Assembly (NCBI GenBank): GCA_024235615.1
Contig: JACKMB010000009.1
Span: forward strand, 1 to 64,000
Origin: Thauera sp.
GTDB taxonomy: Bacteria > Pseudomonadota > Gammaproteobacteria > Burkholderiales > Rhodocyclaceae
Reading direction: 5' to 3'
DNA: 64,000 nucleotides
Numbering within the stretch: the first letter of the stretch is position 1; each line of letters begins with the position of its first letter. This document shows positions 9,135 to 28,976 of this stretch, one piece after another. The position numbers and the translations under genes were made by a program. The notes below the pieces were generated by a model. The model was not told the DNA's origin, searched no databases, and saw only the letters and a list, made by a program, of their open reading frames with translations.

Positions 9135-12100
9135 ATGCTCAAGCTCGAACAGATCACCCCGAACACTGCGCTGGTTGGTATCGAGCTGGGCCAGATCGTC
9201 CGCGTGGTGGCCACCGAGCCGGTCGGCCCCGATGCGCTCACCGTGGTCTACAAGACGGCCGACGGCCGCTTCGGCGAGCGCATGGTGTTCCGCAGCGACG
9301 AGGCCAACCTGTCTGTCGCCGAAGAGGGCCGCCCATGGGCCTTCGACGCGCCCGGCGAAGCGTTCAAGCTCGCGGCGGAGGCGTGGCGAATCAACCTCGC
9401 GCATCTGTTCGACCCGATGATGGCGGTGCATACCTCCAATGTCGAACCGCTGCCGCACCAGATCACCGCGGTCTACGAGTCCATGCTGCCGCGCCAACCG
9501 CTGCGCTACGTGCTGGCGGACGACCCCGGTGCTGGCAAGACGATCATGGCGGGCCTGTTCATCCGCGAGCTCCTGATGCGCGCCGACGCCCGCCGTGTGC
9601 TCATCGTCGCCCCAGGCAGCTTGGTCGAGCAGTGGCAGGACGAGATGCGCGAGAAGTTCGGGCTGGAGTTCCGCATCTTCGGTCGCGACCTCATCGAGAA
9701 CAGTGCCAGTGGCAACCCGTTCGAGGACACCGATTTGCTGGTGGCACGGGTCGATCAGCTCTCGCGCAACGACGACCTGCTGCAGAAGCTCCAGCTCACG
9801 CGCTGGGATCTGGTGGTGGTCGATGAGGCGCACAAGCTCTCGGCCAACTACTTCGGAAACAAGATCAACAAGACCAAGCGCTTTCAGCTCGGCGAACTAC
9901 TCGGCAGTATCACCCGGCATTACCTGCTGATGACCGCGACGCCGCACAACGGCAAGGAAGAGGATTTCCAGCTCTTCCTGTCGCTGCTCGATTCCGATCG
10001 CTTCTACGGCAAGTTCCGCGACGGCGCGCACAAGGTGGATGTGTCCGACCTCATGCGCCGCATGGTCAAGGAAGAGATGTTGCGCTTCGACGGCACAAAG
10101 CTTTTTCCCGAGCGCCACGCCTACACGGTCAATTACCGCCTCTCGGATCTCGAAGCCGCGCTGTACGGCGCCGTCACCGACTACGTGAAGACGGAGATGA
10201 ACCGCGCCGACCAACTCGAAGACGGTGCCCGCCGCGGCACGGTCGGATTCGCGCTCACCGCGCTGCAGCGCCGGCTTGCCTCAAGCCCCGAGGCGATCTA
10301 CCAGTCGCTGCGTCGTCGCCGGACCAAGCTGCAACGCCGGGTCGAAGAAGAGAAGCTGCGCCAGCGCGGCGAAGTGCTCGCCAACAGCGTGTTCACCAAC
10401 GGCGCCGGCGAAGACATCTGGGATGCCCCCGAGAACCTCGCCCCGGAAGACTACGAGGAGTTCGAGGAATCGGTCGTCGATCAGGCCACCGCCGCCCGCA
10501 CCATCGTCGAACTGCAGGCCGAGATCGTTATCCTCGAAGGGCTGGAAGAGCAGGCCCGCCAAGTGGTGCATTCCGGGCAGGACCGCAAGTGGGACGAACT
10601 CTCGCGCCTGCTGCAGGACACGCCCGAGATGCGCGATGCCGACGGCCGTCAGCGCAAGCTCATCGTCTTTACCGAGCACCGCGACACCCTGAACTACCTC
10701 GCCGTGAAGATCCGCGGCGTGCTGGGTAGCGAAGAGGCGGTGGTGGTCATCCACGGTGGCGTCAAGCGCGAGGACAGGCGCAAGGTGCAGGAGCTCTTTC
10801 GCAACGACCCGGTGGTGCGCGTGCTCATCGCCACCGACGCGGCCGGTGAAGGCGTGAACCTGCAAAACGCCAACCTCATGGTCAATTACGACCTGCCCTG
10901 GAACCCCAACCGCATCGAGCAGCGCTTCGGCCGCATCCACCGTATCGGTCAGACCGAAATCTGCCACCTGTGGAACATGGTCGCCAACGAGACCCGCGAA
11001 GGCGACGTTTTCCAGCGCCTGTTTGACAAGCTGGAAGTCGAGCGCAAGGCCTTGGGCGGGCGGGTGTTCGACATCCTGGGCGAAGTGTTCGAGGAAAAGA
11101 GCCTCCGCGAGCTGCTCATCGATGCCATCAAGTACGGCGAAGACCCCGCGCGCAAGGCCGAGCTCTTCCGCAAGATCGAGGGCGCGCTCGACACCGACCG
11201 CCTGCAGACCATCATCCGTCGCAACGCGCTGTGCGAAGAGGTCATGGACCCGCAGCGACTCTACACGGTGAAGGAAGAGATGGAGAAGGCCGAGGCCCGC
11301 AAGCTGCAGCCCTATTTCATCCGCGCTTTCTTCAATCAGGCGTTCCAGTCGCTCGGAGGCGAACTGCGCCCCCGCGAAGCCGGTCGCGCCGAGATCACTC
11401 ATGTGCCGGCCATCATCCGCGAACGCGACCGCCAGATCGCTGGCCGCGACCGGCGCTACAACGAGCCGGTGCTGCGCCGTTACGAGCGCGTCTGCTTCGA
11501 GAAGGACCACGTCCGCGTGCCCGGCCGCGCCGAGGCCAAGATGGCGAGCCTCCTGCACCCCGGCCATCCGCTGATGCAGGCCGTGACCGACATCGTGCTG
11601 GAACAGCATCGCAACAAGCTCAAGCAGGGTGCGGTGCTGGTCGATCCAGCAGACTTGGGGCTCACGCCGCGGCTGATGTTCATCGTCGATCACGCCGTGA
11701 AGGAAGGGGCGGACCAAAACCGCATCGTCTCGCGCCGCATGCAGTTCGTGGAGATCGACCCTGCAGGCGAGGCCATCCATGCCGGATGGGCGCCGCACCT
11801 CGACCTTGAAGCCATCGCCGCCGACGACCTCGCCCGCATCGGCGACGTGCTCGATGCCCCTTGGGTCGCCACCGGCCAAGCTAACCACCTGGAGCAACGG
11901 GCGCTCGTTCACGCATCTACCCATCTGGTGCCCGAGCATTTCGAGGAAGTCCGCACCCGCCGCGTGCAGCAGGTCGACAAGACCCTCGCCGCGGTGCACG
12001 AACGGCTGGTGAAGGAGATCAACTACTGGCAGGACCGCTCGATCAAGCTCAAGGACGACGTCGCCGCCGGCAAGCAGCCGCGCCTCAACTACGACAATGC

Positions 12101-12668
12101 CCTGCGCACCCTGGACGAGCTCTCCGCCCGGCTGCAGACTCGCAGCGCCGAACTGCAGGCCATGCGCCACGTGATCTCCAGCACGCCCACGGTGGTCGGC
12201 GGCGCGCTGGTTATCCCGCAGGGGCTGCTGTTGCAACGTCGCGGCGAATCCGGCTGGAGCGCAGACGCCACCGCTCGCGCCCGCATCGAGGCCATCGCCA
12301 TGCGGGCCGTCATGGATGCCGAGCTCGCCCTCGGCCATGAGGTCATCGACGTGTCCGCGCAGAAGTGCGGCTGGGACGTCACCAGCCTGCCAGGGCCGAT
12401 CGAGGGCCGCCTACCGCCCGCTCGCCACATCGAGGTCAAGGGGCGCGCCAAGGGCGCCGCCACCATCACCGTCACCCGCAACGAGATCCTCTACGGGCTC
12501 AATCAGGCCGACAAGTTCATCCTGGCAGTCGTGCTGGCTGAAGGTGACAATGTAGAAGGCCCGTTCTACATTCGACGCCCCTTCACCCAGGAGCCGGATT
12601 GGGCCGTCACCAGCATCAATCTGGATCTCAATGAACTGCTTGGCAGGAGTACGGCCCCATGCGCTTGA
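9135..12668 (+). CDS. SNF2/DEAH-type helicase with C-terminal DUF3883
   Basis: This is a superfamily 2 helicase or translocase of about 1177 residues. It shows Walker A (DDPGAGKT) near 129-136, a DEAH box (VVDEAHK) near 230, and motifs V and VI in [12 protein letters not shown]...[10 protein letters not shown] near 566-605. The last ~105 residues are a DUF3883 domain with ARHIEVKGR, a PD-(D/E)XK-like signature seen in defence helicases. The start at 9135 ([10 protein letters not shown]) matches the usual N-terminus of such proteins and lies downstream of the -10 box. It is the first gene of the operon and probably moves along invading DNA. It resembles DISARM DrmD and the helicase of Hma-type systems; which is closer cannot be settled here. 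Confidence 0.92.
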
Positions 12669-14098
12669 GCAAGATCACGCTGAGCAATTTCCGATGCTTC
12701 GAAACGCTGGAATTGGATCTGCACCCACGCCTCACTGTGCTCGTTGGCGACAATGGTGCAGGCAAGACCGCTGTACTTGACGCGATTGCCGGTGCCCTAT
12801 CGCCCGTACTGACCTACTTGTCTTCAGCCAACCAGAGACTGAGTGGGCGTGGCATTCAGGACGGAGATTTCCGGGTCGTGCAGTGGCCGCAATTCGGTGG
12901 CAAGGCACGCTGGGGTATGGCGGACGTCACTCAACTAAAAGTGGAAACATTTGATGGTTTAGCTTGGGATGTCTGGCGCGCCTCGACAAAAGGCAAGAAG
13001 CCCGCGCACGCAATTGGTCAAACGGACCTGAAGCATTACCTACAGAGTGTGTCGGACAGTTATGCCGAAGAACTCCCCCGTCTGACGCCAGTCGTCGCCT
13101 ACTACGGAGCACGACGGGGTTATATCGACGTGCCTCAACGTCTGCGTGCAGCCAAGCAGAATTATGGCTATCCGGCCGCCGCGCTGATCGGCGCGCTGGA
13201 TTCCATGAGCGACTTCCGAGAAATGCTCGCATGGTTTGACCAGGAAGAGGCCGCAGAGCTCCGGGCGAACAAGGGAGTCGTTGATGAGGATTTTGTCGAA
13301 TCACCCACGATCGTTGCTGTGCGCACGGCCATCGAAGACCTGCTCGGAGGTGCCTACTCTAATCCGCACTTCAACAAGGACCACAAATTTGTTCTAGAGC
13401 GGAAACTGGACGGTGCTCACTTGATGGTGAGTCAGCTCAGTCAGGGCTATCAGAGCATGCTGGCGCTAGCGATGGATTTCGCTCGCAGGCTTGCTATTGG
13501 TAATCCGCATGCGGTTTATGAGACAGAAAGTGCTTGGCCGCAGATATTTGAGGCAATCACCAAGTTGGAGGCGCTGGACCGCACCTTTTCCAGTGGGATT
13601 GCCGACGATGTAACGACGGCGCTTCGGTCCGCACTATCCCTGAGTGCGCCAGCCATCATGTTGGTCGACGAAATAGACTTACACCTGCACCCAACTTGGC
13701 AGCAACGGGTCCTGGGCGACCTGATGAGGACATTCCCACTCACCCAGTTCATCGTCACCACGCACAGCCCCCAGATACTAACGACGGTCAGCCGCGAGAA
13801 CATTCGGATCCTTCAAACCGCGGAAAGCGGCATCGAGGCCAGAAGACCGGACTTCAGCCCCCTGGCGCACGAATCCGGTGATGCCCTAGCCAAGGTCATG
13901 GGCACGCAACGTGAGCCTGAGCTACCGCTGCAGGACGATATCCGCCGCTACGAGCAGCTGGTACGTACCGGGCAGGAAGGTAGTCCGGACGCGCAACAAT
14001 TGCGCGACACACTGGAAAACGCTGGCTACCAGTTCCACGAAAGCGACTTGGCAACGTGGCGTTTTCTCGCGGCGCGCAAGTTCGGCAAGGCGGGCTGA
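12659..14098 (+). CDS. RecF/SMC-like AAA ATPase, PtuA-like
   Basis: This 479-residue protein has the ABC-type ATPase layout of OLD/RecF-like proteins: Walker A GDNGAGKT near 29-36, a signature-like SQLSQGYQS near 257, Walker [13 protein letters not shown] near 335-345 and a switch histidine in TTHSPQ. No TOPRIM nuclease domain follows, and the next gene is an HNH nuclease. An ATPase-HNH pair of this kind is the Septu (PtuA-PtuB) arrangement, also found as the effector of some retrons. It overlaps the helicase gene by ten bases. Its sequence is visibly AT-richer than the helicase and methylase genes, which suggests a separate origin. Confidence 0.88.
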
Positions 14099-14100
14099 GG

Positions 14101-14691
14101 ATGGTTGAACTGCAACACCGCACCACGCCAACCCCGTCGCTGACTGATTTCGTCTCAACCTATCCCGCGCCGGTCGCTGCCGACTTCGACAGTCGAGCCT
14201 TCCAGCCGATCAAGTTAGCCGTCAAAGCCGATCTGAACAAGGATCAGGGCGGCCTGTGCGCCTATTGCGAAAAACCTCTGCAGCCGACCGAAGGCCAGAT
14301 CGACCACATCAAGCCCAAGGCTGGCGCCAATGCCAGACCGGACCTGTGCTTCGCTTACAGCAACTACGCCCACAGCTGCATCAACCCGAAAACCTGCGGT
14401 CAGAAGAAGCAAGACGGCCTGCTGGCCATCGAACCCGGCCCGGGCTGCAATGCCGAATGGGCGCTGTCCACCGACGGCACCATCGAACCTCTACCCGAAC
14501 TGACCCGGCAACGCCGGCACGCCGTCGTCCAGACGCGCGACATGCTGGGCCTGAACAAGGACTCCGATCTTGTGGATGAGCGCAGGCGCTGGCTCGCCAG
14601 CGCCATTGCAGTCCTTCAGGCGGCGCCCGCAGATTTTCCCGACTTTCTCCAAAGCGCGCCGTATCGGCACATCCTGGCGACCGCTTTCTGA
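14101..14691 (+). CDS. HNH endonuclease, PtuB / TIGR02646-like
   Basis: This 196-residue nuclease has CAYC near residue 51, the QIDHIKPK core of the HNH/McrA fold near 66-73, and a second metal-binding stretch [11 protein letters not shown]. It matches the TIGR02646 type that accompanies retrons and Septu ATPases. The frame is open from 14056, but the ATG at 14101 directly follows the ATPase stop and gives the expected N-terminus. The pair is nested between the helicase and methylase genes and may act as the DNA-cutting module, or as an independent system carried inside the operon. Confidence 0.88.
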
Positions 14692-14702
14692 CACCCCGAG
14701 AC

Positions 14703-17597
14703 ATGACCCCCATCAAAACCCCCAAGAAACTCATCGAAGTCGCCCTCCCGCTCGACGCCATCAACGTCGCCGCGGCGCGGGAGAAGTCGATCCGCCACGG
14801 CCATCCCAGCACGCTGCACCTGTGGTGGGCGCGCCGGCCGCTGGCCGCGGCGCGGGCGGTGATCTTTGCGCAGATGGTCAATGACCCCGGCTACGAGCGC
14901 CACCTGGGGCGCGGGGTGAACAAGGAGAAGGCGGCCGTCGAGCGCGAGCGCCTGTTCAAGATCATCGAGGACTTGGTGCAGTGGGAGAACACCAACAACG
15001 AGGACGTGCTCGCCCGCGCCCGCGAGGAGATCTGGAAGAGCTGGCGCGAGACCTGCGCGCTCAACCGCGGTTACGTGGCCTCCCACCCGCAGGCGGCCGA
15101 GCTCTTCAACCCGGACAAGCTGCCCGCCTTCCACGACCCCTTCGCGGGCGGCGGCGCGCTGCCGCTGGAGGCGCAGCGCCTGGGGCTGGAGAGCTACGCC
15201 AGCGACCTCAACCCGGTCGCGGTGACCATCAACAAGGCGATGATCGAGATTCCGCCACGCTTTGCCGGCCGTGCGCCGGTGGGGCCGCGCATCCCCGGCG
15301 ACAAGCAGGGCAAGCTGGCCGAAGACTGGTCCGGCGCCAAGGGTCTGGCCGAGGACGTGCGCCGCTACGGCGCCTGGATGCGGGGGGAAGCGGAAAAGCG
15401 CATCGGTCACCTGTACCCGAAGATCGAAGTCACCGCCGAGATGGTCGCCGAGCGACCGGACCTCAAGCCGCTGATGGGGCAATCGCTCACCGTGATCGCC
15501 TGGCTGTGGGCGCGCACCGTAAAAAGCCCCAACCCCGCCTTCAGCCATGCCGAAGTGCCGCTGGCCTCGACCTTCGTGCTGTCGAGCAAGGCGGGCAAGG
15601 AGGCGTATGTGGCGCCGGTGGTCGAGGGGGATGGCTATCGGTTCACGGTGAAGGTGGGGACGTCGCCGGAGAGTGCGAAGGACGGCACCAAGGCCGCCGG
15701 GCGCGGTGCGAATTTCCAGTGCGTGTTGTCGGGCGTGCCGATTGGTGGCGACTACATCAAGGCCGAGGGGCAGGCTGGACGCATGGGCGCACGATTGATG
15801 GCCGTTGTTGCCGAAGGCGTGCGCGGGCGTGTTTATCTCACCCCGACCGAAGAGCACGAAGTCGTCGCCCGACAGGCGGAGCCGTCATGGAAGCCATCGG
15901 GTGACGTACCGGCCCGACTCACCGGTGGCACTTGCGTGCCTTACGGTCTGAAAGAATGGGGCGACCTCTTCACCCCCCGCCAACTGGTGGCACTGACCAC
16001 CTTTTCTGATCTGGTCCAGGAGGCCATCGAAAAGTGCCGTCAGGACGCGTTGACTGCAGGATTGGCCGATGACGGCACCGGGCTGGATGCCGGCGGCAGC
16101 GGGGCGACAGCGTATGCGCAGGCGGTGGGGGTGTACCTGGGTATCGCCGTAGATAAGACAACGGATTACAACAGCTCCTTGGTTGCGTGGAGCCCAACTC
16201 GCGATCAAGCCAAGACCACCTTTGGCCGGCAGGCACTGCCGATGATCTGGGATTATGCAGAAATCAATACGTTAGCGGGCGCAGCTGGTGATCTTGATGT
16301 TTCGATCGCGGGAATTTGCCGCGCAATGCCTGCACTTGCATCAACTGAACACGGTTCTGCGAGACATGCCGATGCACAGTCGCAGAAAATCAGTGCTGGA
16401 AAGGTCGTCTCCACCGACCCCCCTTATTACGACAACATCGGCTATGCCGACCTATCCGATTTCTTCTACGTCTGGCTACGCAAGAGCCTGAAGCCGATCT
16501 TCCCCGGCTTGTACGCCACGCTGGCCGTACCCAAGGCCGAGGAACTGGTCGCCACGCCCTACCGTCACGGCACCAAGGAGAAGGCCGAAGCTTTCTTCCT
16601 CGACGGCATGACCCGCGCGATCCACAACCTCGCCGAGCAGGCGCATCCAGCCTTCCCGGTGACGATCTATTACGCCTTCAAGCAGGCGGAAACCAAGGGC
16701 GACGCGGGCACCTCGAGTACCGGCTGGGAAACCTTCCTCGATGCGGTGATTCGCGCCGGTTTCGCCCTCACCGGCACTTGGCCTATGCGCACGGAACGTG
16801 ATGCGCGCTCAATCGGAATCGGCGCCAACGCGCTCGCCTCCAGCATCGTTCTCGTCTGCCGCAAGCGCGACGCCGACGCCGCTATCGTCAGCCGCCGCGA
16901 GTTCATCCGCGAACTCAACGCCGTGCTGCCCGAGGCGCTGATGGACATGACCCGCGGCGGCATCAACAGCCCGGTGGCGCCGGTCGATCTGTCGCAGGCC
17001 ATCATCGGCCCCGGCATGGCGATCTTCAGCCAGTACGCGGCGGTGTTGGAGGCCGACGGCAAGCCGATGAGCGTGCGCACCGCGCTGCAACTCATCAACC
17101 GCTTCCTCGCCGAGGACGACTTCGACCACGACACCCAGTTTTGCCTGCACTGGTTCGAGGGCCAAGGCTGGGCCACCGGCAAGTATGGCGAGGCCGACGT
17201 GCTCGCCCGCGCCAAGGGCACCAGCGTGTCCGGCCTAACCGACGCCGGCGTGGTCGAATCCGGCAAGGGCGAGCTACGCCTGCTGAAATGGGCCGAGATG
17301 CCGCGCGACTGGAACCCGGAAACCGACACCCGCGTGCCGGTGTGGGAAGCCCTTCACCAGATGATCCGCGCCCTCAACCAGGACGGCGAAACCGCCGCCG
17401 GCGCGCTGCTCGCCCGCATGCCCGCCCGCGCCGAGCCTATCCGTGCGCTCGCCTACCGCCTCTACACCCTATGCGAGCGCAAAGGCTGGGCCGAAGACGC
17501 CCGCGCCTATAACGAGCTGATCACCGCCTGGAGCGGCGTGGAGCGCGGGGCGAGCGAGGCGGGGCATGTGGGGTCGCAGGGTAGTCTGGACATCTGA
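14703..17597 (+). CDS. DUF1156-family DNA methyltransferase
   Basis: This 964-residue DNA methyltransferase begins with the DUF1156 domain ([14 protein letters not shown], then [16 protein letters not shown]). A SAM-binding motif DPFAGGG lies near 144 and the catalytic [18 protein letters not shown] near 572. The DPPY tetrad indicates amino methylation (N6-adenine or N4-cytosine). It probably marks host DNA as self, while the helicase and nucleases attack unmarked DNA. DUF1156 methylases are known partners of DUF499 ATPases, and such a gene (24788) lies downstream. It starts 11 bases after the HNH gene. Confidence 0.92.
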
Positions 17598-17607
17598 GGA
17601 GCGAGAC

Positions 17608-18027
17608 ATGGTCAGCGTTCACCGAATTGGGATTTCCCTCGAAAGAAAGAGGAAGGAGCTGAGCGCACACACCATCGCCAGTTTTCTGGTCGCACAAGGC
17701 GTCGAGAATGTGCCCGCGCTACGCGCGAATAGGTTGATGAGCTATACGGCATTGCGCTTTATCAATGACCGTTCGGCCATCAACTACTGGCTTCGCATGA
17801 ATTTGCTGGACATTCCAGATCATGCACCGGACAAGCTGGTGCTCACCCAGGCTGGACTCCGCGAGTGTGTCGAAAGAGAGGCGGGCACGGCCACTGACAG
17901 TCTCGGGCGAAAGAAGAAGGAATGCGTAACTCCCGAGCTAGTTCGTGAAATGCGGAATGCGATTTTGTTTGGCGAGTACCACAACCCAGCAGTCTCGTTC
18001 GAAGCAAAGGATTTCAATCTTGGCTAG
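17608..18027 (+). CDS. Unknown small protein, paralogue of the 19145 gene
   Basis: I do not recognise this 139-residue protein. It is clearly related to the protein at 19145-19582: both share SFLVAQG near residue 27, a following hydrophobic core with LRF/LTF and a tryptophan-leucine segment, then LT..GL..V..REA and a final PELVR. The pattern looks like a winged-helix domain, so DNA binding is possible, but this is inference. The ATG at 17608 has a GAGGAG ribosome binding site six bases before it. The two copies flank the DUF1016 nuclease gene. Confidence 0.75.
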   Translation: MVSVHRIGISLERKRKELSAHTIASFLVAQGVENVPALRANRLMSYTALRFINDRSAINYWLRMNLLDIPDHAPDKLVLTQAGLRECVEREAGTATDSLGRKKKECVTPELVREMRNAILFGEYHNPAVSFEAKDFNLG

Positions 18028-18056
18028 GCCGACTGTGTGTGCGGCTTTTGCGCGCC

Positions 18057-19115
18057 ATGAGTGATCTGATCTCCAGAGAAGGCGAGCTGCTCTCGGCGCT
18101 GCGTGGCCTGATCGAGCAGGCCCGCCAGCACGTGGCGCAAACGGCCAACAGCACTGTGACGATGCTGTACTGGCATGTCGGCCTGCGCATCCGCAGCGAG
18201 GTGCTCAAGAACGAGCGCGCCGAGTATGGCGAGCAGATTGTGTCGACGCTGTCGACACAATTGGTCCGCGAGTACGGCCGCAGCTTTGGCGTGCGCAGCT
18301 TGCGCCGCATGGTGCAATTTGCCGAGGTGTTCCCGGACGAGGCGGTGGTGGCATCGCTATCGCCGCACCTGAGCTGGAGCCACTTCATCGAGATCCTGCC
18401 GCTGAAAAAGCCGCTGGAGCGCGAGTTCTACGCCGAGATGTGCCGCATCGAGCGCTGGAGCGTGCATACCCTGCGCGAGCGCATCAGCAGCCAGCTCTAC
18501 CTGCGCACGGCGCTGACAAAGCAGCCCGAGGCGCTGGTCGATGCCGAGCTCGTCAAGCTGCGCGCCGGCGGCCAGATGACGCCCGACATGGTGTTCCGCG
18601 ACCCCTACATGCTGGACTTTCTCGGCCTGCCCGACGGCTACAGCGAGCGCGACCTGGAGGCCGCCATCCTGCGCGACATGGAGCGCTTTCTGCTGGAGAT
18701 GGGCGCGGGCTTCACCTTCGTCGCCCGCCAGAAGCGCATCAGCGTGGGCGGTGACGACTTCTATCTCGACCTGCTGTTCTACCACCGGCTCTTGCGCCGG
18801 CTGGTGGCGGTGGAGCTGAAGCTGGAGAAGTTCCAGCCCGCCCACAAGGGCCAGATGGAGCTGTACCTGCGCTGGCTGGACAAGTACGACCGCGCCGCGG
18901 GCGAGGAGTCGCCCATCGGTTTGATCCTGTGCGCCCAGGCCGACACCGAGCAGGTCGAGCTGCTGGACCTGGGGAGGGCCAACATCCGGGTCGCCGAGTA
19001 CCTGGACAAGATTCCCGACATGAAACTGCTGCGCGAGCAGTTGCACCGTTCGGTGCAGCGGGCGCGCGAACAGGCTGCGTATGGCGCGTTGCCATCGGCT
19101 CCCGAGCACGATTGA
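18057..19115 (+). CDS. DUF1016 (YhcG-type) PD-(D/E)XK nuclease-like protein
   Basis: This 352-residue protein has the DUF1016 architecture: an N-terminal helical domain (IEQARQHVAQTAN...TMLYWHVG..IR) and a C-terminal PD-(D/E)XK-type fold with DFYLDLLFYHR and VAVELKL near 234-256, where D, E and K form the likely metal site. Family members occur in mobile elements and restriction islands. It is likely a third DNA-acting module of the operon. The two related small proteins on either side may be its specific partners or regulators. The ATG at 18057 was preferred to 18039 because it gives the usual N-terminus. Confidence 0.88.
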   Translation: MSDLISREGELLSALRGLIEQARQHVAQTANSTVTMLYWHVGLRIRSEVLKNERAEYGEQIVSTLSTQLVREYGRSFGVRSLRRMVQFAEVFPDEAVVASLSPHLSWSHFIEILPLKKPLEREFYAEMCRIERWSVHTLRERISSQLYLRTALTKQPEALVDAELVKLRAGGQMTPDMVFRDPYMLDFLGLPDGYSERDLEAAILRDMERFLLEMGAGFTFVARQKRISVGGDDFYLDLLFYHRLLRRLVAVELKLEKFQPAHKGQMELYLRWLDKYDRAAGEESPIGLILCAQADTEQVELLDLGRANIRVAEYLDKIPDMKLLREQLHRSVQRAREQAAYGALPSAPEHD

Positions 19116-19144
19116 AGGCGCCGACGCCTTTGGAGGATGAGGAC

Positions 19145-19582
19145 ATGGCAAGAATCACCGTATTCCGAGAGAACCAGCAGCTTCGTGGGAAAGCCTTGGC
19201 TGCAAACACGGTTGCGAGTTTTCTGGTGGCGCAAGGAAAGAGCTCGTTACCCGACCTGTCGGAGACTTGGGTGATGAACGCTGAGTTGCTGACCTTTTTG
19301 AACCGCCCGCGTGCGCTCGATCATTGGTGTGATCTGGGCAGATTGTTGCCCAGAGGTGGCGGGTACGTGCTGACAAGGCATGGGCTGGATACTGTGCTCA
19401 ACCGAGAGGCAAACGAGGCTCGTGGCGCTTCTGGAAAACGCAACGCATTCAACGTGTCACCGGAGCTTGTCAGGCTGGCCCGGCTATTCATTCTGACGGG
19501 TAGGACACAGGAACCTTCTGGTATCGAAGTGCTGAGCATGACTCTTGATGTGGATATCCCTGAAGGCGACTGGACCCCATAG
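19145..19582 (+). CDS. Unknown small protein, paralogue of the 17608 gene
   Basis: I do not recognise the family. The 145-residue protein aligns over most of its length with the product of 17608-18027 (ANTVASFLVAQGKSSLPDL against AHTIASFLVAQGVENVPAL, then a shared LTRHGL / LTQAGL and SPELVR / TPELVR), but the two have diverged well beyond a recent duplication. A winged-helix-like DNA-binding fold is possible. The ATG at 19145 has a GGATGAGG-like ribosome binding site before it. Confidence 0.75.
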   Translation: MARITVFRENQQLRGKALAANTVASFLVAQGKSSLPDLSETWVMNAELLTFLNRPRALDHWCDLGRLLPRGGGYVLTRHGLDTVLNREANEARGASGKRNAFNVSPELVRLARLFILTGRTQEPSGIEVLSMTLDVDIPEGDWTP

Positions 19583-19678
19583 TTTTCAAGCCACAGGGCT
19601 TTTCGCGCCAGATTCGGCGGTGAGTCGGGGAAGCAAGCATCGGATCTGAGTCGGCGATTGAGTGAGGAACAAAGAACA

Positions 19679-21394
19679 ATGCAGAACAAGAAACTCTCGA
19701 TCCGGAAGATCGTGAGCTATCTGAACGACGAAGAGGCCGAGGGTGGTGGGTTCTGGCTGCCGAACATCCAGCGGCCCTTCGTTTGGAGTGAGGAGCAAAT
19801 TGCGCGCCTGTTCGATTCGATCATGCGCGAGTACCCGATCAGCACGCTGCTGGTGTGGAAGACGAAGGAGGCGGTGAAGCACCGCAAGTTCATCGATATC
19901 TACCGGCGCGACATCAAGCTGACCGACTTCTACGTCCCGGACAACACGCGCTCGAAGATGATGGTGCTCGATGGGCAGCAGCGCCTTCAGAGCCTGTTCA
20001 TCGGCTTGCGCGGCAGCTACGAAGGGCGCGAACTGTACTTCGACGTGCTCAGCGGCGGCGTGGCGGCCGCGCCGGAGGACATTCGTTTTCGCTTCGCCTT
20101 CAAGACCGCGAATCCGGGCTGGCCCTGGGTGCGGTTCAAGGATCTCGTTTTCCAGAACAACAGACTTCCAGGTGAAATGGCGGATGCGCTCGCACAAAGT
20201 GCGCCTCAGGCGCTGTCACAAGATGCCTTCCGCACCGTTAGCCGGAACATCGAGCGGGTACGGCAGGAGTTCGTGACCGACGACAACATCACCTTCCAGG
20301 AGCTGGACGGCATCGACAATCCGGATGCCTACCGGGTGGATGACATCGTCGAGATCTTCATCCGCGCCAATTCCGGCGGTACCAAGCTCGGCAAGTCGGA
20401 TCTGCTGTTCTCGTTGCTGACTTCGAGTTGGGACGAGGCCGATGGCGAGATGGAAGCGTTGCTGGAGGACCTCAACCAGGGCAGCTTCGATTTCGATCGC
20501 GACTTCGTGCTGAAGTCCTGCCTGAGCATGCTGGGCAAAGGGGCGCGCTATGAGGTCGGCAAGTTCCGGGACGGCAAGACCAAGGAGGAGATCATCGCCA
20601 AATGGGATGAACTGGCCGAGGCGATCAGGGCGGTGCGGGATCTGCTGGTCTCCAAGACGTACATTCGATCTGATCGGGCGATGCCTTCCTATCTGGCGCT
20701 GATCCCGCTTATTTACTATCGCTTCCACCACCCGGCGAAGTTCGCTGCCAACCAAGACATGGCGGCCTATCTGCTACGGGTGCTGGTGACAGGGGTGTTT
20801 GGCGGCAGCCCGGACAACCTGATCGACAAGCTGGTTCGCAACATCCAGGAACAGCAGGATTTCGTACTCTCTGAGATCTACGGGGTGATCCGTGCAGAGG
20901 GTCGCAGCCTGGAGATCACGCCGGCGGTGATTTTCGATCAGTATTACGGATCAAGGACGATCCACCTCTTCTTCAACCTCTGGTACCGGGACTTCGACTA
21001 CTCGCCCGCGCTGGATGCCAACGGCCCGCAGGTGGATCATATCTTCCCGCAGAGCCTGTTGAAGACCGTTAAGGACATCAACCCCGAGAGCGGCAAACGC
21101 AACATCCTGCACTACCGCGCGGAGCACCGTGATCAGCTCGCCAATTGCATGCTGCTGACAGCCGAGGAAAACGGCTTCTCGGGCAAGTGCGATAAGCCGC
21201 CCGCAGAGTGGTTTGCGCGCTCGCGATTCTCGTCTGATGCAACGCATAAGCGCTATCTGCAAATACACCTGATTCCGGACGACCCAGAGTTGTGGAAGTT
21301 GGAGCGTTACGACGATTTCGTCGCCGCTCGCAAGGCACTGATCACGTCGAAGTTCGCCTATATGTTGCGCAAGGACGAGGAGGTGCTGGCGTGA
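19679..21394 (+). CDS. DUF262 / DUF1524 (HNH) nuclease, GmrSD-like
   Basis: This 571-residue protein begins with a DUF262 domain (IQRPFVWSEEQIARLFDSI, then MVLDGQQRLQS near 98-104) of the ParB-like NTPase/DNase type. It ends with a DUF1524 HNH domain (QVDHIFPQSLL near 452-461, NCMLLTAEEN). The combination is that of GmrSD and BrxU-type enzymes that cleave modified phage DNA. The ATG at 19679 is preferred over 19658 because of the GAGG upstream. It adds another nuclease to the operon and could cover phages that escape methylation-based recognition; this is inference. Confidence 0.9.
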   Translation: MQNKKLSIRKIVSYLNDEEAEGGGFWLPNIQRPFVWSEEQIARLFDSIMREYPISTLLVWKTKEAVKHRKFIDIYRRDIKLTDFYVPDNTRSKMMVLDGQQRLQSLFIGLRGSYEGRELYFDVLSGGVAAAPEDIRFRFAFKTANPGWPWVRFKDLVFQNNRLPGEMADALAQSAPQALSQDAFRTVSRNIERVRQEFVTDDNITFQELDGIDNPDAYRVDDIVEIFIRANSGGTKLGKSDLLFSLLTSSWDEADGEMEALLEDLNQGSFDFDRDFVLKSCLSMLGKGARYEVGKFRDGKTKEEIIAKWDELAEAIRAVRDLLVSKTYIRSDRAMPSYLALIPLIYYRFHHPAKFAANQDMAAYLLRVLVTGVFGGSPDNLIDKLVRNIQEQQDFVLSEIYGVIRAEGRSLEITPAVIFDQYYGSRTIHLFFNLWYRDFDYSPALDANGPQVDHIFPQSLLKTVKDINPESGKRNILHYRAEHRDQLANCMLLTAEENGFSGKCDKPPAEWFARSRFSSDATHKRYLQIHLIPDDPELWKLERYDDFVAARKALITSKFAYMLRKDEEVLA

Positions 21395-21452
21395 ACAGTG
21401 CAGCGCGAGGTGTTTCTGGTCGTCTGCAGTGGCTTACCGGGAGGATTGTGGG

Positions 21453-22922
21453 ATGACGCAAGCGGAAATGTCTGACGCGATCAGCGGTGAGCTTGCATTT
21501 GACGTCTTTGCGTCGGAAAGCCCGGTCGCGCATAAGCAGAAAGCCCTCAAGGCCTTGATGCGGGAGAAGCTGATACCCAAGCAGGCAGATGACGCGCGTT
21601 TCCAGGCTGGGCTGGCGAGCCTGACTCGTTTGGCAGCCGACCGTAGCGAGGAGCCCGAGTCCCGCCTGCTGGCGATTGCCTGCGTAGTCCACTCCGCGCA
21701 GGTGGTGAAGCGCCTGCAGCCCAGTTTGCGGCAGTGGCTCGCGCCCGCGATGGACGGGGACTTTCCAGCTCTGCAGCTGCTGAAGGAGGCCGACGATCGG
21801 CTGAACGCGGCGCGCGCGCTGAGCCTTGCCGACGGAGCTTGGTTGAATGCGTATCTGGCGGACGCGATCGCTTGCGAGGAAACCGGCGAGAAGGCGCGTG
21901 AGGAGATGATTTCCGCCCTGCTGGCCCGTAGCCCGACGCTGGCTGAACTGCTGGGTAGCATCGCGCGGGCCATGGCCAGCGTTAGGCCCGAAACGGAGAA
22001 GCCGGGCGACTCCGTCGCTCGCCGGCAGGCGCGGACGCTTTCTGCTTTACGCGGCCTGATTCCCACGTCCGAGCTGGAAGCTGGCGATGAGATCGGTAAG
22101 GCATTGCATGAACTGGTGAACCTGCCCCTGCGGGCAGTGGGTCGGCCGAAGGAAGAGAAGGTCCAGAATGAGTTGACCGAAGAGGTAATTCTGCTGACCC
22201 ACGAGATCGTTCGCACGCGCTTTTCTGTGGCGACCGATCCAGTGGTGTTCAGGGCGGTGGCCTACTGCAGGCAGATGCTGGGCAGTGGTAGTTGGCCGGA
22301 TGCACTTCAGGGCGCCTTATCTCTGCTGATCAAGGACGTCAGGGAGGCCCTGATCCTGCTGGGACGGCAAGGCGTCCGTGACCAAGGTCTCTTGGATCAG
22401 CTCGACATGCTCTGTAACTATCCACTTCGGGCGCGCGCGATTGCAAAGGAGATCGCGGAGCGGCACCCAGAGCTGGATGAGGACACCCGGCAGTGGCTCA
22501 TCCATGGCCGTGTCGTGGCTCGGCGCGAGGCCAGCAGCACCGCGTTGGAGGTGGGGGCGCGTGAGGCCGACGTGGCGATCGGGCTTGCGCTGAACGCGGC
22601 CAGGGAAGCCCGGCAGGCGGTTGCAGGAGTCAAGGAGCCTGTGATCTCCGTGCTCGACATCTACGAGCAGAGCCTAGTGAGTGTCGCCCAGGACTGCTTC
22701 CAGCGCTTCGAGGGCTTGCTGCTGCAGATGGACCAAGTTGCCCAGCAGCGCCGCCTCGCCCTTTATGGGGAGGTTGGGCAAGAGGTCGATTTCGCACCGA
22801 AGTATTTTCAGGCGGTGGGTGATTTGGCGCGTCAGAAGGTCATCGTCCGCCAGCCTGCGGTGGTGCGCATACGCACGGACGGAACGGCAGGCGACGTGGT
22901 GTTGAAGGGATTGGTCGAATAA
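21453..22922 (+). CDS. Unknown protein, possible GrpE-like C-terminus
   Basis: I do not recognise the family of this 489-residue, mostly helical protein. The N-terminal ~340 residues look like helical repeats. After a helical stretch near 370-440 the last ~50 residues (GQEVDFAPKYFQAVGD... VRIRTDGTAGDVVLKGLV) resemble the end of GrpE, the nucleotide exchange factor of Hsp70, in pattern: an acidic turn followed by a small beta domain. The next gene, 27 bases downstream, encodes an Hsp70-type ATPase, so a dedicated exchange factor or co-chaperone is an attractive guess. The resemblance is weak and by eye only. Confidence 0.7.
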   Translation: MTQAEMSDAISGELAFDVFASESPVAHKQKALKALMREKLIPKQADDARFQAGLASLTRLAADRSEEPESRLLAIACVVHSAQVVKRLQPSLRQWLAPAMDGDFPALQLLKEADDRLNAARALSLADGAWLNAYLADAIACEETGEKAREEMISALLARSPTLAELLGSIARAMASVRPETEKPGDSVARRQARTLSALRGLIPTSELEAGDEIGKALHELVNLPLRAVGRPKEEKVQNELTEEVILLTHEIVRTRFSVATDPVVFRAVAYCRQMLGSGSWPDALQGALSLLIKDVREALILLGRQGVRDQGLLDQLDMLCNYPLRARAIAKEIAERHPELDEDTRQWLIHGRVVARREASSTALEVGAREADVAIGLALNAAREARQAVAGVKEPVISVLDIYEQSLVSVAQDCFQRFEGLLLQMDQVAQQRRLALYGEVGQEVDFAPKYFQAVGDLARQKVIVRQPAVVRIRTDGTAGDVVLKGLVE

Positions 22923-22949
22923 CTCAGAACACGGTAGAGGAGGCGGTAG

Positions 22950-24707
22950 GTGAATCCAGAGATTGCCAAGTTTCTGCTTGAGAGTTTGATCGAGCGTATC
23001 GATCGCAATGCCATCGGGACTGTTTCGTCTGCAGAGCGTGAGGCGCTGGGTGTGGCCTTGGCCATACTGCGGGGCGGAACTGCGAGCCCGTCTGAGACCC
23101 CACTCGAAACACCTACGCCCCCGTCTGTGGCAGGCCGCGTAGCGGATGCCCCACCGACTACTGCGGAACAAGTCATCCCCGTGCCGCCACCCCAGGAGGA
23201 TGCGCCCCCTCCTGAGGTGCCGAAAACGGTCCAGCCGAAGGTCGTCTTGGTTACCGACGCACTGGACAGGAGCACGCCTGATGACCCCGATGTGCTGCTT
23301 TGCCTGGACTTCGGGACGGCCATGTCCAAGGCGTTTGCGCAGTCGGACGATGGTCAGCCGTTTGAGCTGGAGTTAGGCGCGCAAGCCGGCGGTGAAGGCT
23401 ATGCGGTGCCGTCATCAGTCTTCATCACCGATGACGGAAAGGTGCTGTTTGGCTTCGAAGCCGTGGATGCGAGCCAGGAGCTTTCAGACTCCAACCGGGC
23501 GCGCCTGGATTCGATCAAGAGCTGGCTGAGTCAGCGCTCGGACGGGAATCTTGATGCCTACCCTTTGCGGGCCGAAATGAATCCGACGCGGGTCAAGCTG
23601 ACCGAAGGCGATCTGATTCGGATTTACTTGGCCTATTTGACTGATCTGGCCGTTTCTCAGGTTCAGACTTGGTCGGCGGAAGACACGAAAGGTCCGCTCT
23701 GCCGCTATGTGAGGCGGCGATTTGCGCATCCGTGCTGGCCGTCTTCGGCGCAGAAGTCTTGGGCGGACCGGTTGATGCGCCACTGGATGGCCGAAGCGCA
23801 AATTCTTGCGGATACCTTTCACGATCGGTGGCAGGGCGGCCTGGATGTGGCAGAGGTTAAGGCGGCTGTCGATCTAGTGCGCGCCTTGGAGCGGCGCCCC
23901 GAGTATTTGATCGCCGACGGTGTCCCCGAGCCTGTGGCCGTGGCGGCTGGAGCGCTGGTCGACGGTGAAGACAAGCGTCTTCCTTTCATGGTGATCGATG
24001 TAGGAGCAGGCACGACCGACTTCGGCCTCTTCCTCCTCCGCGAGGATGAGCAGCGAGAGATCACACGGGTGTTTCAGGTGCCGGGCTCGATCAAGGCCCT
24101 AATGCAGGCCGGCGATCGGATCGACATGATGCTGAAGAAGTTCATCCTGGATGCCCAGGGTGTCGACCTGACCGAGCCGCACGGTCGGCTGGTTGCAGCC
24201 GATCTGAGCCGTCGCATACGTGGATTGAAGGAGCGTTTGTTTGCGGACACCAGGGTCCAGTACGTGCTTAGCGACGGTACGCTCGGAAAGATCGAACTGG
24301 GCGACTTCATGGCTTCGCGGCCGGTCAGGGAGTTTTCCGAGCGTGTCGAGCAGGGCTTCAGGGATGTGCTCGAAGGGCTACACGACACGTGGCTGAGCTA
24401 TCTCACCAAGACCGATCTCACGGTGATTCTGACGGGTGGCGGCGCAAGTCTGCCGATGATGCGCGCGCTGGCCGAGGGGTGGGTAGAAGTGCGCGGCAAG
24501 CGGATCGCACGCAAGCTCGTGAATCCGTTACCGAGCTGGATTTTGGGCGAGAGCCCGGAGTTGGAGCCTGTCTATCCGCAGCTGGCAGTGGCGATTGGCG
24601 GCGCGGCACATGAACTTCCGGAGACTGTGGATGGCCCCGAAGCCTTTGCCGGTGGTGGGGGCAGAACAGCGTATGCGGTAGGGAACCTGCAGGTGAGTGG
24701 GGCCTAG
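22950..24707 (+). CDS. Hsp70/actin-like ATPase of the defence operon
   Basis: This 585-residue protein has the actin/Hsp70 ATPase fold: phosphate 1 motif [11 protein letters not shown] near 117-127, phosphate 2 motif [12 protein letters not shown] near 348-359 and adenosine motif [12 protein letters not shown] near 491-502. An N-terminal region of about 110 residues, Pro-rich near its end, precedes it, and no normal substrate-binding domain follows, so it is not a DnaK. The GTG start at 22950 has an AGGAGG about eight bases before it. Proteins of this kind in defence islands may remodel complexes in an ATP-dependent way; the target here is unknown. The upstream gene may encode its exchange factor. 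Confidence 0.85.
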
Positions 24708-24787
24708 ACCAAGTTGAGTCAAGAATATTGGCGGTATCGAAGTTGCCGACGCGACGTGCTGCTGCAGCTTCATGGGAGATGATGGGG

Positions 24788-27613
24788 ATGAGTTTGAAGC
24801 CGTGGCGCGAAATCGCCGTTCCACACGAGGACGTGCTCAAGGGCACCTTCCAGCAGGCCGAGTTCGCGGCCGACCTGTCGCGTGTGCATCTGGGCACGGC
24901 GACCGCCGAGTACCAGGACCCGTCGCTGTTCTTCCAGCGCACCTTCATCACCGAAGGCATGCGCCTGCTGCTGGATTCGGTGGTGCATCGCCTGACCGGG
25001 CGCGGTGGCGATCCGGTGATCCAGTTGCAGACCGCCTTCGGTGGCGGCAAGACGCACACGATGCTGGCTGTGTATCACTTGGCCAAAGGCGAGGTGTCGG
25101 CTTCCGACATGCCTGGCATTCCGTCGATCCTGAACGCGGCCGGCGTGGTGGAGATGCCGCGGGCGCGCATCGCGGTGCTCGACGGCATCCGCCTGTCGCC
25201 CAACCAGCCGATGAAGCGCGATGGGCTGGCGGTGAACACGCTCTGGGGCGAGCTGGCTTGGCAACTCGGTGGTGCCGAGGGCTACGCCATGGTGCGCGAG
25301 GCGGACGAGTCCGGCACCTCGCCCGGCAAGGGCGTGCTGGCGGATCTACTTGGCCGCTACGCACCCTGCGTGATCCTGATCGACGAGCTGGTGGCCTATA
25401 TCCGCCAGTTCGAGGAAGGCAAGACGCTGTCGGGCGGCTCCTTCGACTCGAACCTGAGCTTCTTGCAGGCGCTGACCGAGGCGCTCAAGGCGGTGCCGAC
25501 GGCGGTGTTGCTGGCCTCGCTGCCCGAGTCCGACAAGGAAGCCGGCAGCCAGCGCGGCGTGAAGGCGTTGGCTGCCCTGTCGCACTACTTCGGGCGGGTC
25601 CAGGCGCTGTGGAAGCCGGTGTCGTCCGAAGAAGCCTTCGAGATCGTGCGTCGTCGGCTTTTCTCGAGCATCGGCGACAAGCTGGGCGCCGAGACGGTAT
25701 GCCGGGCCTTTGCCGACTACTACATCGCCAACGCTGCCGACCTGCCGCACGAGACCCAGGAGGCGCGTTACTTCGAGCGCCTGATGCACGCCTACCCGAT
25801 CCATCCTGAGGTGTTCGTGCGCCTGTACGAGGACTGGTCCTCGCTCGACAACTTCCAGCGCACCCGCGGCGTGCTGAAGCTGATGGCGAAGATCATCCAC
25901 CGGCTGTGGAAGGACAACAATTCCGATCTGCTGATCATGCCGGGCAGCCTGCCGCTGTACGACGCCGACACCCGCAACGAATCGATCTACTACCTGCCGC
26001 AGGGCTGGGACCCGGTGCTGGAAAGCGACGTCGACGGCGAGCGCGCGGAGACGACCGAGCTGGAGAGCGTGGATACCCGCCTGGGCAGCGTCCAGGCGTG
26101 CCGGCGCACAGCGCGGACGATCTTCCTGGGTAGTGCGCCAACGACATCCAGCCAGATGGTGCGCGGCATCGAGCTCGAGCGGGTATTGCTGGGGTGCGTG
26201 CAGCCGGGGCAGCAGATCGGCGTGTTCAAGGACGCGCTGCGCCGCCTGAACGACCGCCTGCACTATCTGAACTCGGGCAACAACCGCTTCTGGTTCGACA
26301 CCCGGCCCAACCTGCGCCGCGAGATGGAAGACCGCAAGCGGCGCTTCCATGACAAGGACGACGTGATCCCTGCCGTCCGCGACCGCGTGCAGCGCACCCT
26401 GGCGCCGGGGGTGTTCGGCGGCGTGCATGTGTTCACCGCCAGCGCCGACATTCCCGACGACTGGGCGCTGCGCCTGATCGTGCTGCCGCCGACGGCCGGC
26501 TACAGCCGCAGCGGCGATCAATCGGCGATTCGTTACGCCACGGAGATCCTCAAGCACCGCGGCGAGCAGCCGCGCTTCAAGCAGAACCGCCTCATCTTCC
26601 TGGCCCCCGATGCCGATAGCGTGAGCCGCCTGAAGGATCAGGTGCGCTCGGTGCTGGCTTGGCAGTCGATCGTCGCCGACATCAAGGACCTCAAGCTCAA
26701 CCTCGACCAGTACCAAGCCCGGCAGGCCAGCCGCAGCCTGGACGACGCTAACGAGGCTCTGCGCGGAATGGTGAAGGAGAGCTACCGCTGGATGCTGGCA
26801 CCGGCCCAGTTCGCTGAGCGCGGCAAGGGGCTCTCGGAACTGCAGTGGGAAGCCTTCCAGATCAACTCCGGCGCGCAGAACCTGACGCAGGAGATCGAGC
26901 GCGTGCTGCGCGAGAACGAGCTGCTGATCACGGAGTGGGCGCCGATCCACCTGCACAACGTGCTGAAGACGTGGTTCTGGAAGGACGGTACTGGCGAGGC
27001 CAATGCGCTCAACGTCTGGCAGCAGACCTGCCACCAGCTGTACCTGCCGCGCCTGAAGGACGACGCTGTGTTCCACCACACGCTTGCTGCGGGTGCCGAG
27101 AGCCGGGATTTCTTTGGTTTCGCGCAAGGCAAGGAGGACGGTCGCTACCTGGGCTTCAGCTTCGCGAAGCGGACAACGCCCATTCTGGACACCGCGCTGA
27201 TCCTGATCGAACCATCACTTGCACACGCCGAGGCCGAGCGCATCGCGGCCGAACGCGCGCAGGAGGCGGCGGGCGCTGCAGCGGTGACCTATCCGCTTGG
27301 CACACCGCCCAGTGCGCAACAGGCCGCCGACTCCGGCGCCACCACGCGCGTTGTCGCTACTCCAGTCGCGGCAACCACTGCGCCACGGACACACTTCTTC
27401 GGGACAATCGACCTCGATCCCGTCATGGCGAAGCGGCAGTTCGCCGACATCATCGACGAGGTGGTGCTGAACTTCACCGCGAAGCCGGGCGTGAAAGTGC
27501 GGATCTCGATCGAGATCGACGCCGAGAGCGAAGCGGGCTTCGAGGATGGGCTGCAGCGCGCCGTAAGGGAGAACTGCAACGTGTTGAGGTTCAAGAACGC
27601 GGAATTCGATTGA
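24788..27613 (+). CDS. DUF499-family ATPase
   Basis: This 941-residue P-loop ATPase of the DUF499 family begins with the typical [12 protein letters not shown]. It has Walker A FGGGKTHT near 84-91 and Walker [11 protein letters not shown] near 195. DUF499 proteins are large ATPases associated with DUF1156 methylases and helicases in anti-phage loci, comparable in role to PglY/BrxC. The start was placed at the third clustered ATG (24788), which has GGGAG nine bases upstream; 24779 and 24782 are alternatives. With the helicase and methylase it completes what looks like an Hma-type core. Confidence 0.92.
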
Positions 27614-27745
27614 GCCCGATCCCTGAACCGATCGACGCCCGGGAGCGCGCTGTCGAGCTCAGTTCGGCGACAGCTGCGTCCTGCTCCGGTTCGCACCGGG
27701 ACGAACGTCAGCGTCGCGGCACTGACTTCATAACGAGACAAGAAA

Positions 27746-28849
27746 ATGCTTTCTGAACTTGGTTTGAGCGTGGCCCGTTCCATCCCCGTCGAGCAGGTGA
27801 TTGGTTTGGCGACGGGCAACCTGAGCCTTCACGGTGGGGTGATCCGGGACGCTGCAGGTCGAATCGTCTCCCACTTGGCAATGCCGGCTTCTGCTGGCCT
27901 GCTTGGTGCGGTTCCAGGCTTGGGCGCGATCGGGTCGGTCGTGACCGGAATCCAGATGCAAGCCTTGAGCGCGAACGTGGCTGCAGTGAAGGCGGCGACC
28001 GATCAGATCCTGAACTACTCGATCGCGACCACCGCGCTGTCGGGCTTGGGTATCGTCACCTCGGTAACTGGCTTCGCCTATCTTGCTTCTCGCCTGAACC
28101 GCATCGACAAGCGGCTGAGCACTCTTGAGAAGCAGACGAAAGCCATCAAGCAGTTCCTGCAGTCTTCGCAGCATGCCCAGCTCATGACCGCGGTCGATCA
28201 CCTGCGTCTGTCTCAGCAGGCCACGGATGGCGAGACGCGGCGACACTTGCTCCTTCAGAGCAAGCAGCTGTTCACGACCCTGGCCCATCACTACAAGGTC
28301 CAGCTCGGGGAGATCGACGACATCACCGAACTGAATGCGACGGAGGACTGCTACGTCCTCGCCTGCCTCGGCAGCGTGATGGCGATGAGCGACCTTGGCA
28401 TGGGTGAGGCCGCCCGGGATGAAATGCTTCGCCACTACGCCGACTGGCGTGTGATCGCTCGCAAGCACTGCGGCAAGCTGCTGCTCAAGGATGACCCTGC
28501 ACGCCTGTTTGACGCCCGGTACGTGCAGTCGGTGCCGGCCGCAAACCTGATTCGCTTCCTCGACTTCACGAACGACAGCAACCGCGGCGTGCAGTGGTTT
28601 GACGAGTTACGGCGAACTCTCGACAAGGCCACACTGGTCCGCAGCGCGATGTCAGTCGTCGAGCCCGCCTGCATCGAGTACGCGAACAAACTGCTGGTCA
28701 AGAACGAGGTGCTGCAGGGCTTCAACGCCCATATGGGGTTCCTGGCCGAGAAGAAGCTATCGCTCTCGTACTTTGCCCAGAGGGTCGAGGAGATCCGGGA
28801 ACGAGAGGGCGCGAAGTTCCTGGTGCTGCAGAACACCGCGCCTGCGTAG
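27746..28849 (+). CDS. Unknown protein with hydrophobic hairpin and coiled coil
   Basis: I do not recognise this 367-residue protein. Two Gly/Ala-rich hydrophobic stretches lie at about 44-70 (GLLGAVPGLGAIGSVVTG) and 92-117 (ALSGLGIVTSVTGFAYL). A charged helix with heptad character follows near 115-145 (RIDKRLSTLEKQTKAI), then a helical C-terminal domain. The paired hydrophobic segments recall the membrane hairpin of pore-forming proteins, so a membrane-acting effector is possible; an anchored scaffold is an equal alternative. It is the last gene of the operon, 132 bases after the DUF499 gene, with a weak ribosome binding site. Confidence 0.75.
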   Translation: MLSELGLSVARSIPVEQVIGLATGNLSLHGGVIRDAAGRIVSHLAMPASAGLLGAVPGLGAIGSVVTGIQMQALSANVAAVKAATDQILNYSIATTALSGLGIVTSVTGFAYLASRLNRIDKRLSTLEKQTKAIKQFLQSSQHAQLMTAVDHLRLSQQATDGETRRHLLLQSKQLFTTLAHHYKVQLGEIDDITELNATEDCYVLACLGSVMAMSDLGMGEAARDEMLRHYADWRVIARKHCGKLLLKDDPARLFDARYVQSVPAANLIRFLDFTNDSNRGVQWFDELRRTLDKATLVRSAMSVVEPACIEYANKLLVKNEVLQGFNAHMGFLAEKKLSLSYFAQRVEEIREREGAKFLVLQNTAPA

Positions 28850-28951: not shown

Positions 28952-28976
28952 CTGGCTCTCGTGTGGCAGTAGGTCA

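Follow-up and report, generated by a model that had tools for sequence, protein, structure and literature searches.

The stretch of DNA considered here, 64,000 nucleotides of a Thauera sp. genome (GenBank assembly GCA_024235615.1, contig JACKMB010000009.1, positions 1 to 64,000; hereafter the window), raises the question of whether the twelve genes that follow one another at positions 9135-28849 constitute a single antiviral machine of a new kind or a known system into which other defence genes have been inserted. An earlier note, made from the sequence alone, had favoured an undescribed composite system. Judging by profile matches, the operon is a Hma system, alias Type-1 BREX-related (BR), composed of the HmaA helicase, the HmaB DUF1156 methylase and the HmaC DUF499 ATPase, and carrying embedded defence modules. 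We consider it probable that this restriction-modification-like operon accumulated back-up modules in its two usual slots and is the right-end cargo of a Tn7-like transposon located past the host gene gyrB.

The gene list and the spacings confirmed the run of twelve consecutive plus-strand genes, separated by −43 to +132 bp once the start of gene 7 is revised. Curated PADLOC models matched nine of the twelve strongly and the last one, g12, weakly, so that these open reading frames (ORFs) are not chance. The first gene, hmaA (9135..12668, PADLOC HmaA 2107.7 bits), encodes a SNF2/DEAH helicase with Pfam matches to Helicase_C, SNF2-rel_dom and, at the C-terminus, the nuclease-like domain NOV_C (DUF3883), where a D...E-V-K pattern read by eye points to a putative PD-(D/E)xK nuclease. 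Since the PADLOC model spans residues 22-1196 of a longer ORF beginning at 9072, the ATG at 9135 is most likely the start of hmaA, in agreement with the earlier call. The second core gene, hmaB (14703..17597, PADLOC HmaB 1793.8 bits; Pfam DUF1156, E 3.1e-31), contains a DPPY motif at residue 572. Before this motif, residues 481-560 (about 16143-16382) form a variable segment with a putative role in target recognition. The motif presumably favours an amino-methylase. The third, hmaC (24728..27613, PADLOC HmaC 1561.7 bits; Pfam DUF499, E 1.4e-28), encodes an AAA+ ATPase with a hypervariable stretch at residues 841-900. The core motifs DEAH, DPPY and VILIDE were located by script and GGGKT was read by eye in HmaC. 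The three family assignments of the earlier note (DUF3883/NOV_C helicase, DUF1156 methylase and DUF499 ATPase) were thus recovered with Pfam, and HmaA, HmaB and HmaC, the three components that define Hma or Type-1 BR membership, are all present according to PADLOC and Pfam.

A DISARM or BREX identity deserves mention because HmaA also fits helicase models of both, DrmD and BrxH, though we regard such an identity as hardly conceivable. The cross-matches are far weaker (395 versus 2108 bits for HmaA), those to DISARM were limited to DrmD and DrmA helicase models hitting HmaA, and no DrmB, DrmC, PglZ, BrxL or BrxC appeared among the matches listed for the twelve genes, nor did PglZ in Pfam. Likewise, scanning the twelve genes with Pfam gave no match to DUF3780, whose stand-alone gene marks Type-2 BR systems. 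The Hma-type self/non-self core with additional modules proposed in the earlier note is a part of that note which stood.

The additional modules occupy the two spaces between the core genes. Their HEC and PDC designations reportedly stem from a 2024 preprint by Payne et al. on Hma-embedded candidates (HEC) and phage/putative defence candidates (PDC), and HEC-05, PDC-S02 and PDC-M61 are available as named PADLOC models. The hmaA-hmaB (A-B) slot harbours ptuA (12659..14098, PADLOC PtuA 645.8 bits, Walker A GDNGAGKT) and ptuB (14056..14691, PADLOC PtuB 356.9 bits), an ATPase gene overlapped by that of an HNH nuclease, which is the arrangement of Septu type I. The hmaB-hmaC (B-C) slot contains yhcG, or PDC-S02 (18039..19115, PADLOC 415.6 bits; Pfam YhcG_C and DUF1016_N), coding for a PD-(D/E)xK nuclease; HEC-05 (19658..21394, PADLOC 332.5 bits), a GmrSD-type nuclease with Pfam GmrSD_N and with GmrSD_C just under the cut-off; and PDC-M61A (21429..22922, 544 bits) followed by PDC-M61B (22950..24707, 517.6 bits). 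PDC-M61B may adopt a Hsp70/actin-like ATPase fold, given its weak resemblance to chains of GRP78 homologues (E 0.0011) and, under the cut-offs, to FtsA/MreB. The three nuclease modules announced previously correspond to PtuB, YhcG and GmrSD, to which the NOV_C domain of HmaA adds a further nuclease-like region. Two short genes, g5 (17608..18027, 139 residues) and g7 (19145..19582, 145 residues), flank yhcG within the same slot, and g12 (27746..28849, 367 residues) lies after hmaC; all of these genes are on the plus strand. Gene 7 had been called from its first start codon as 18929-19582; the ATG at 19145 has a Shine-Dalgarno-like GGAGGATGAGGA upstream and is probably its true start. Third-position G+C content was 0.83-0.87 in the core genes, 0.65 in ptuA, 0.64 and 0.61 in g5 and g7, and 0.90 in yhcG.

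Regarding novelty, the system belongs to a kind already known. As far as the consulted parts of the cited papers go, here and below, Hma was named in 2021 by Payne et al. as hmaA-hmaB-hmaC, often found together with Septu type I (PMC8565338), and Hma-embedded candidates and embedded nucleases have since been described (PMC12988326, PMC12255303, PMC12839542), discovery having proceeded by 'guilt-by-embedding' (PMC12988326). The claim of an undescribed composite does not hold against this literature. Type-1 DUF499-centred BR systems share with the present locus the tripartite core, the helicase with a C-terminal nuclease, the embedded HNH/OLD-ABC, PD-(D/E)xK and GmrSD nucleases, the target-recognition insert of the methylase and the hypervariable C-terminal domain of HmaC (PMC12839542). 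The present locus differs from the Hma loci of PMC8565338 in that it combines four embedded modules with g5/g7, and from the examined text of PMC12839542 in the size of the stack, in g5/g7 and in the uncoupled variable segments described below. The literature examined contained no member so loaded and nothing on g5/g7, on a test of the two segments or on a transposon linked to gyrB; some of this may be in the 2024 preprint.

Whether the twelve genes work as one was addressed by comparison with relatives. A scan of genome contigs with HmaB retrieved 323 of them, of which the best 80 by HmaB similarity were analysed with flanks of up to 10 kb and mechanically called ORFs. Complete core genes in A-B-C order occurred in 55 of these 80 loci; the remaining 25 (A, B or C missing, on the opposite strand, or covered at 85% or less) do not enter the slot counts. 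Slots larger than 400 bp were common among the complete loci, A-B in 43/55, B-C in 35/55, either one in 48/55 and both in 30/55, and the B-C slot of the present operon (7130 bp) exceeded that of all 55 (largest 5054 bp). Other cargo of the relatives was homologous to the Septu, YhcG, GmrSD and M61 genes of the present locus, and ten representative cargo proteins that were scanned corresponded to HEC-01, HEC-02 (two), HEC-08, HEC-09, PDC-M07, AbiL-like, PsyrT and PsyrA, with one weakly pAgo-associated.

These comparisons bear directly on the possibility that the twelve genes form an integrated, co-dependent composite in which the additional nucleases serve as effectors coupled to the Hma sensor. 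Tight spacing on a single strand and embedding in equivalent slots in many relatives speak for it, as does the number of internal terminator-like sites, which was not in excess (14 on both strands against 14.1 expected from shuffling); this count is compatible with a single transcript and no proof of it, so that co-transcription remains a presumption. However, the extra genes of the 80 relatives appeared singly or a few together, in varied combinations with the same core, and the complete cargo set was found in none of the 80 within the fetched DNA. From these varied combinations, the modules look interchangeable rather than parts of a twelve-gene machine. Moreover, Septu works alone, and g12 is also present in another genome of the family, G561, with no Hma match in the 16.6 kb read there. 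An integrated composite therefore seems to us very unlikely, and the earlier note ends up supported for its Hma-type core with modules and not for its undescribed composite; it had left the Tn7-like genes and the gyrB site out of its finding.

The alternative that we prefer, an Hma operon with accumulated modules, is also in line with the ancestry of the locus. Most pieces of the core showed 84-95% nucleotide identity to the loci of Thauera sp. 2A1 (L004), Azoarcus taiwanensis (L005) and Cognatazoarcus halotolerans (L007); the 3′ end of hmaC was lower in L007, with a piece at 76%. Among these three, L007 alone aligned to Septu and g12, L004 alone to yhcG, and L005 alone to GmrSD together with M61A/B. 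More distant copies were detected elsewhere, for instance M61A/B with a distant PtuA in L003 (Zoogloea oleivorans Buc), GmrSD in L015 (76%), YhcG in L029 (76%) and PtuA in L012 (70%). The third-position G+C values given above differ among these genes as well. On this evidence, the locus joins modules that relatives carry apart and is of mosaic ancestry; the direction in which the genes moved is conjectural.

The two short genes g5 and g7 are paralogues (38% identity over 113 residues, E 8e-20). No matches were obtained for g5 in Pfam, PADLOC, NCBIfam or the PDB sequences, nor for g7 in Pfam, PADLOC or NCBIfam, which sets both apart from the HEC and PDC candidates. A role as general Hma component was considered and rejected, since the 80 HmaB loci yielded nothing at E 1e-5, with two matches at chance level (E 0.48 and 0.77). 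Searches of 369 genomes of the class returned their own genome only, and those of 199 genomes of the family returned their own genome, a partial match in G559 (E 8.8e-6) and marginal ones in G419 (E 0.005) and G557 (E 0.009). No g7 was found in plasmids, no g5 in phages, and none of g5, g7 and g12 in viral contigs. As for g12, the sole PADLOC model that it fits is JukB, weakly and over its N-terminus (45.5 bits, residues 11-146), and no JukA occurred among the matches listed for the genes scanned; the JukA sensor and JukB effector of a Juk system were thus not recovered as a pair. According to PMC13282480, JukB is a pore protein.

The methylase and the ATPase of the core each contain a highly variable stretch. 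When HmaB was compared in 40-residue blocks, residues 481-560 showed 28-52% identity to L004, L005 and L007 and 82-98% to L003, residues 321-480 were partly variable with respect to the former three (62-100%), and residues 1-320 and 561 onward were mostly 88-100% identical to them, with lower values at 121-160 and 681-720. Among the 219 pairs of HmaB proteins with at least 85% identity in the flank (561-680), the segment was below 40% identical in 158 and above 80% in 6. A set of 76 HmaB proteins (75 loci plus the window, 5 of the 80 loci being dropped for a short match or a stop in translation) fell into 54 segment types at 70% identity, and the type of the window was common to only two of the other 75, L003 and L025. 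In HmaC, residues 841-900 were hypervariable, with a mean identity to the window of 0.19. The coupling of both segments was evaluated in 62 sequences (61 loci plus the window, 18 of the 80 being dropped for a short HmaC or a stop, L005 among them). The HmaB segment did not follow HmaC 841-900 (r 0.06, permutation p 0.11; 0.00 after allowing for backbone) nor its own backbone (r 0.11), and hence followed nothing tested (r 0.06-0.11), while in the controls the HmaB and HmaC backbones correlated at r 0.93 and control segments at r 0.78. The limits of the segments were picked after viewing the identity profiles, and the sequence pairs are not independent. As these alignments indicate, the HmaB segment is freely exchanged between backbones, and the variable segment of HmaC does not track that of HmaB. 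A separate observation is that L006, L008, L010 and L026 have a nearly identical HmaC hypervariable segment (0.86-0.97) and all bear genes of the HEC-09 cluster in the A-B slot.

The surroundings of the operon indicate how it may be carried. To its left, the minus strand encodes tnsA (7042..7770, Pfam TnsA-like N), tnsB (5099..7045, Pfam Mu-transpos_C and PADLOC TnsB), tnsC (4084..5130, Pfam TniB/AAA and PADLOC TnsC), tniQ1 (2705..4087, Pfam TniQ), whose product may be a TnsD-like target selector, and tniQ2 (892..2739, Pfam TniQ with HTH_17). To its right, a transposon end on the minus strand (28975..29044), with a TGTAGG terminus and repeats of about 22 bp resembling an array of TnsB sites, is followed by the 5-bp target-site duplication GCGGC (29045..29049, minus-strand reading), and by gyrB (29058..31559, minus strand, Pfam), dnaN and dnaA. 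This end lies 13 bp past the stop codon of gyrB and recurs at the equivalent place in two relatives, G375 and G380. The left end, absent from the window by search, turned up on another contig of this genome, C4, together with the second copy of the duplication, and the bases after gyrB in the empty site of G371 match, by eye, those outside that left end. Tn7 generates 5-bp target duplications, and those observed were GCGGC here, CGGCG in G375 and GCTGC in G380. The element thus has tnsA, tnsB, tnsC and tniQ, TGT..ACA ends, repeats and a 5-bp duplication, as expected from Tn7-like transposons, and resembles in its tnsABC and tniQ genes, transposase-site arrays and defence cargo those described in PMC8649781. 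It differs in its position next to gyrB, at the 3′ end of that gene: neither 'gyrB' nor 'gyrase' occurs in the main texts of PMC8649781 and PMC10293859, and the titles and abstract openings of the papers listed in literature searches revealed no gyrB-linked element, which is no proof of its being unpublished.

In G375, listed in the same genus as the genome of the window, the element measures about 56.7 kb, with a tnsB 92% identical to the present one and a different Hma system (HmaA 52%, HmaB 61% and HmaC 40% identical) with a HEPN domain at the N-terminus of its HmaC. In G380 (L120) a 2077-residue DruE of Druantia type III comes after the right end at gyrB. Regions downstream of gyrB were read in 12 of 15 same-genus relatives, with contigs ending early in G381 (2.7 kb), G380 (6.9 kb) and G378 (14.4 kb), and the present transposon end was found in 2 of the 12; among 199 genomes of the family it was found in two, the genome of the window and G561. 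The genome of L004 was taken to be that of G375 because their gyrB genes have identical contig number and coordinates; if so, Thauera sp. 2A1 would hold two different Hma systems.

The transposon brings in the possibility of a passive defence island, in which unrelated defence genes lie side by side on a mobile element, their location within the Hma operon having no functional basis. Tn7-like elements often bear defence cargo (PMC8649781), and the equivalent position is occupied by the HEPN-type Hma in G375 and by Druantia DruE in G380. Nevertheless, cargo was inserted between hmaA and hmaB or between hmaB and hmaC in most complete relatives, as counted above, and the exact 12-base terminus was present in none of the 80 Hma loci within the fetched DNA. 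Both facts together suggest selection for embedding as such, co-expression being one conceivable benefit, and make a passive island unlikely.

Several neighbouring features can be added. A helix-turn-helix (HTH) regulator gene (8070..8540, minus strand, Pfam HTH_31 and HTH_3) is divergent from hmaA and may control the operon; a Uma2-family gene also lies left of the operon beside the HTH and transposition genes. About 50 bases at window positions 1-52 reappear four times on contig C4 (88-100% identity), possibly as an assembly-breaking repeat, and the same contig at 409-16556 (L132) encodes a 3453-residue cadherin-like adhesin along with HlyD, OEP and M50-peptidase genes, perhaps further cargo. 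The element of G375 (L117, L123, L124) presents a sacsin/TmtA-like protein of 1423 residues and a kinase-like protein in its Hma slots. The region after gyrB (L110-L121) varies among the 12 same-genus genomes and looks like an insertion hotspot, where L112, L114, L115 and L118 exhibit another common motif, about GACCATAAACTGGCAAATGGCTAG.

Under the preferred reading of an Hma operon with back-up modules, the exchangeable target-recognition segment of HmaB would determine the motif at which this enzyme methylates host DNA, the HmaC AAA+ ATPase would assemble a complex for scanning, perhaps sensing a distinct cue by way of its hypervariable segment, and HmaA, combining helicase and nuclease, would destroy unmodified DNA. 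Septu, YhcG, GmrSD and PDC-M61 would act as parallel or back-up layers against phages with modified DNA or with inhibitors of the core, and g12 may be a membrane-active effector of last resort. The scheme follows the published Type-1 BR proposal (PMC12839542) and the Hma naming (PMC8565338), and both the biochemical activities and the division of labour are drawn by analogy. A bolder version, which we put forward only tentatively as somewhat improbable, is that Hma is a two-key system, the HmaB segment setting the motif and the HmaC segment reading another phage-side cue, with both changing independently; that these operons are plug-in platforms; and that g5-YhcG-g7, with near-orphan and possibly winged-helix paralogues on either side of the nuclease, is a new three-gene module.

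A number of observations weigh against the preferred reading or parts of it. The HmaC segment 841-900 does track its own backbone (r 0.63), and is therefore better described as fast-diverging than as clearly exchanged. With 0.7 identity as the threshold, the HmaB segment is common to 27 pairs and the HmaC segment to 13, and that 0 of 1891 pairs have both in common is weak evidence because only 0.19 would be expected by chance. HmaB is termed an m5C methylase in PMC8565338 and an N6 methylase in PMC12839542. In summed slot length (9164 bp) the locus is second to L064 (9960 bp) among the complete relatives, and a larger one could be missed because the survey covered the best 80 of 323 with flanks of at most 10 kb. 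A separate promoter could fit into the 132-bp gap between hmaC and g12, and g12, which occurs in G561 with no Hma match in the stretch read there, may be a neighbour rather than an operon member. The AlphaFold models of g5 and g12, built on two-sequence alignments, were too poor for interpretation (mean pLDDT, the predicted local distance difference test, 47.7 and 42.8). Finally, the two transposon ends lie on separate contigs, here as in G380 (C76 and C84), and an overlap between the starts of contigs C4 and C9 was looked for and none was found; their joining by a single element is our inference.

Overall, the locus offers a natural example of stacked immunity, in which a restriction-modification-like core and four defence modules share one operon and apparently one mobile element, and three relatives, each with one part, allow pieces of the stack to be traced. 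The exchange of the HmaB segment, uncoupled from HmaC, opens a direct test of what each of the two proteins recognizes in a widespread family, while the gyrB-linked transposon with its exchangeable defence cargo illustrates how such stacks may move.

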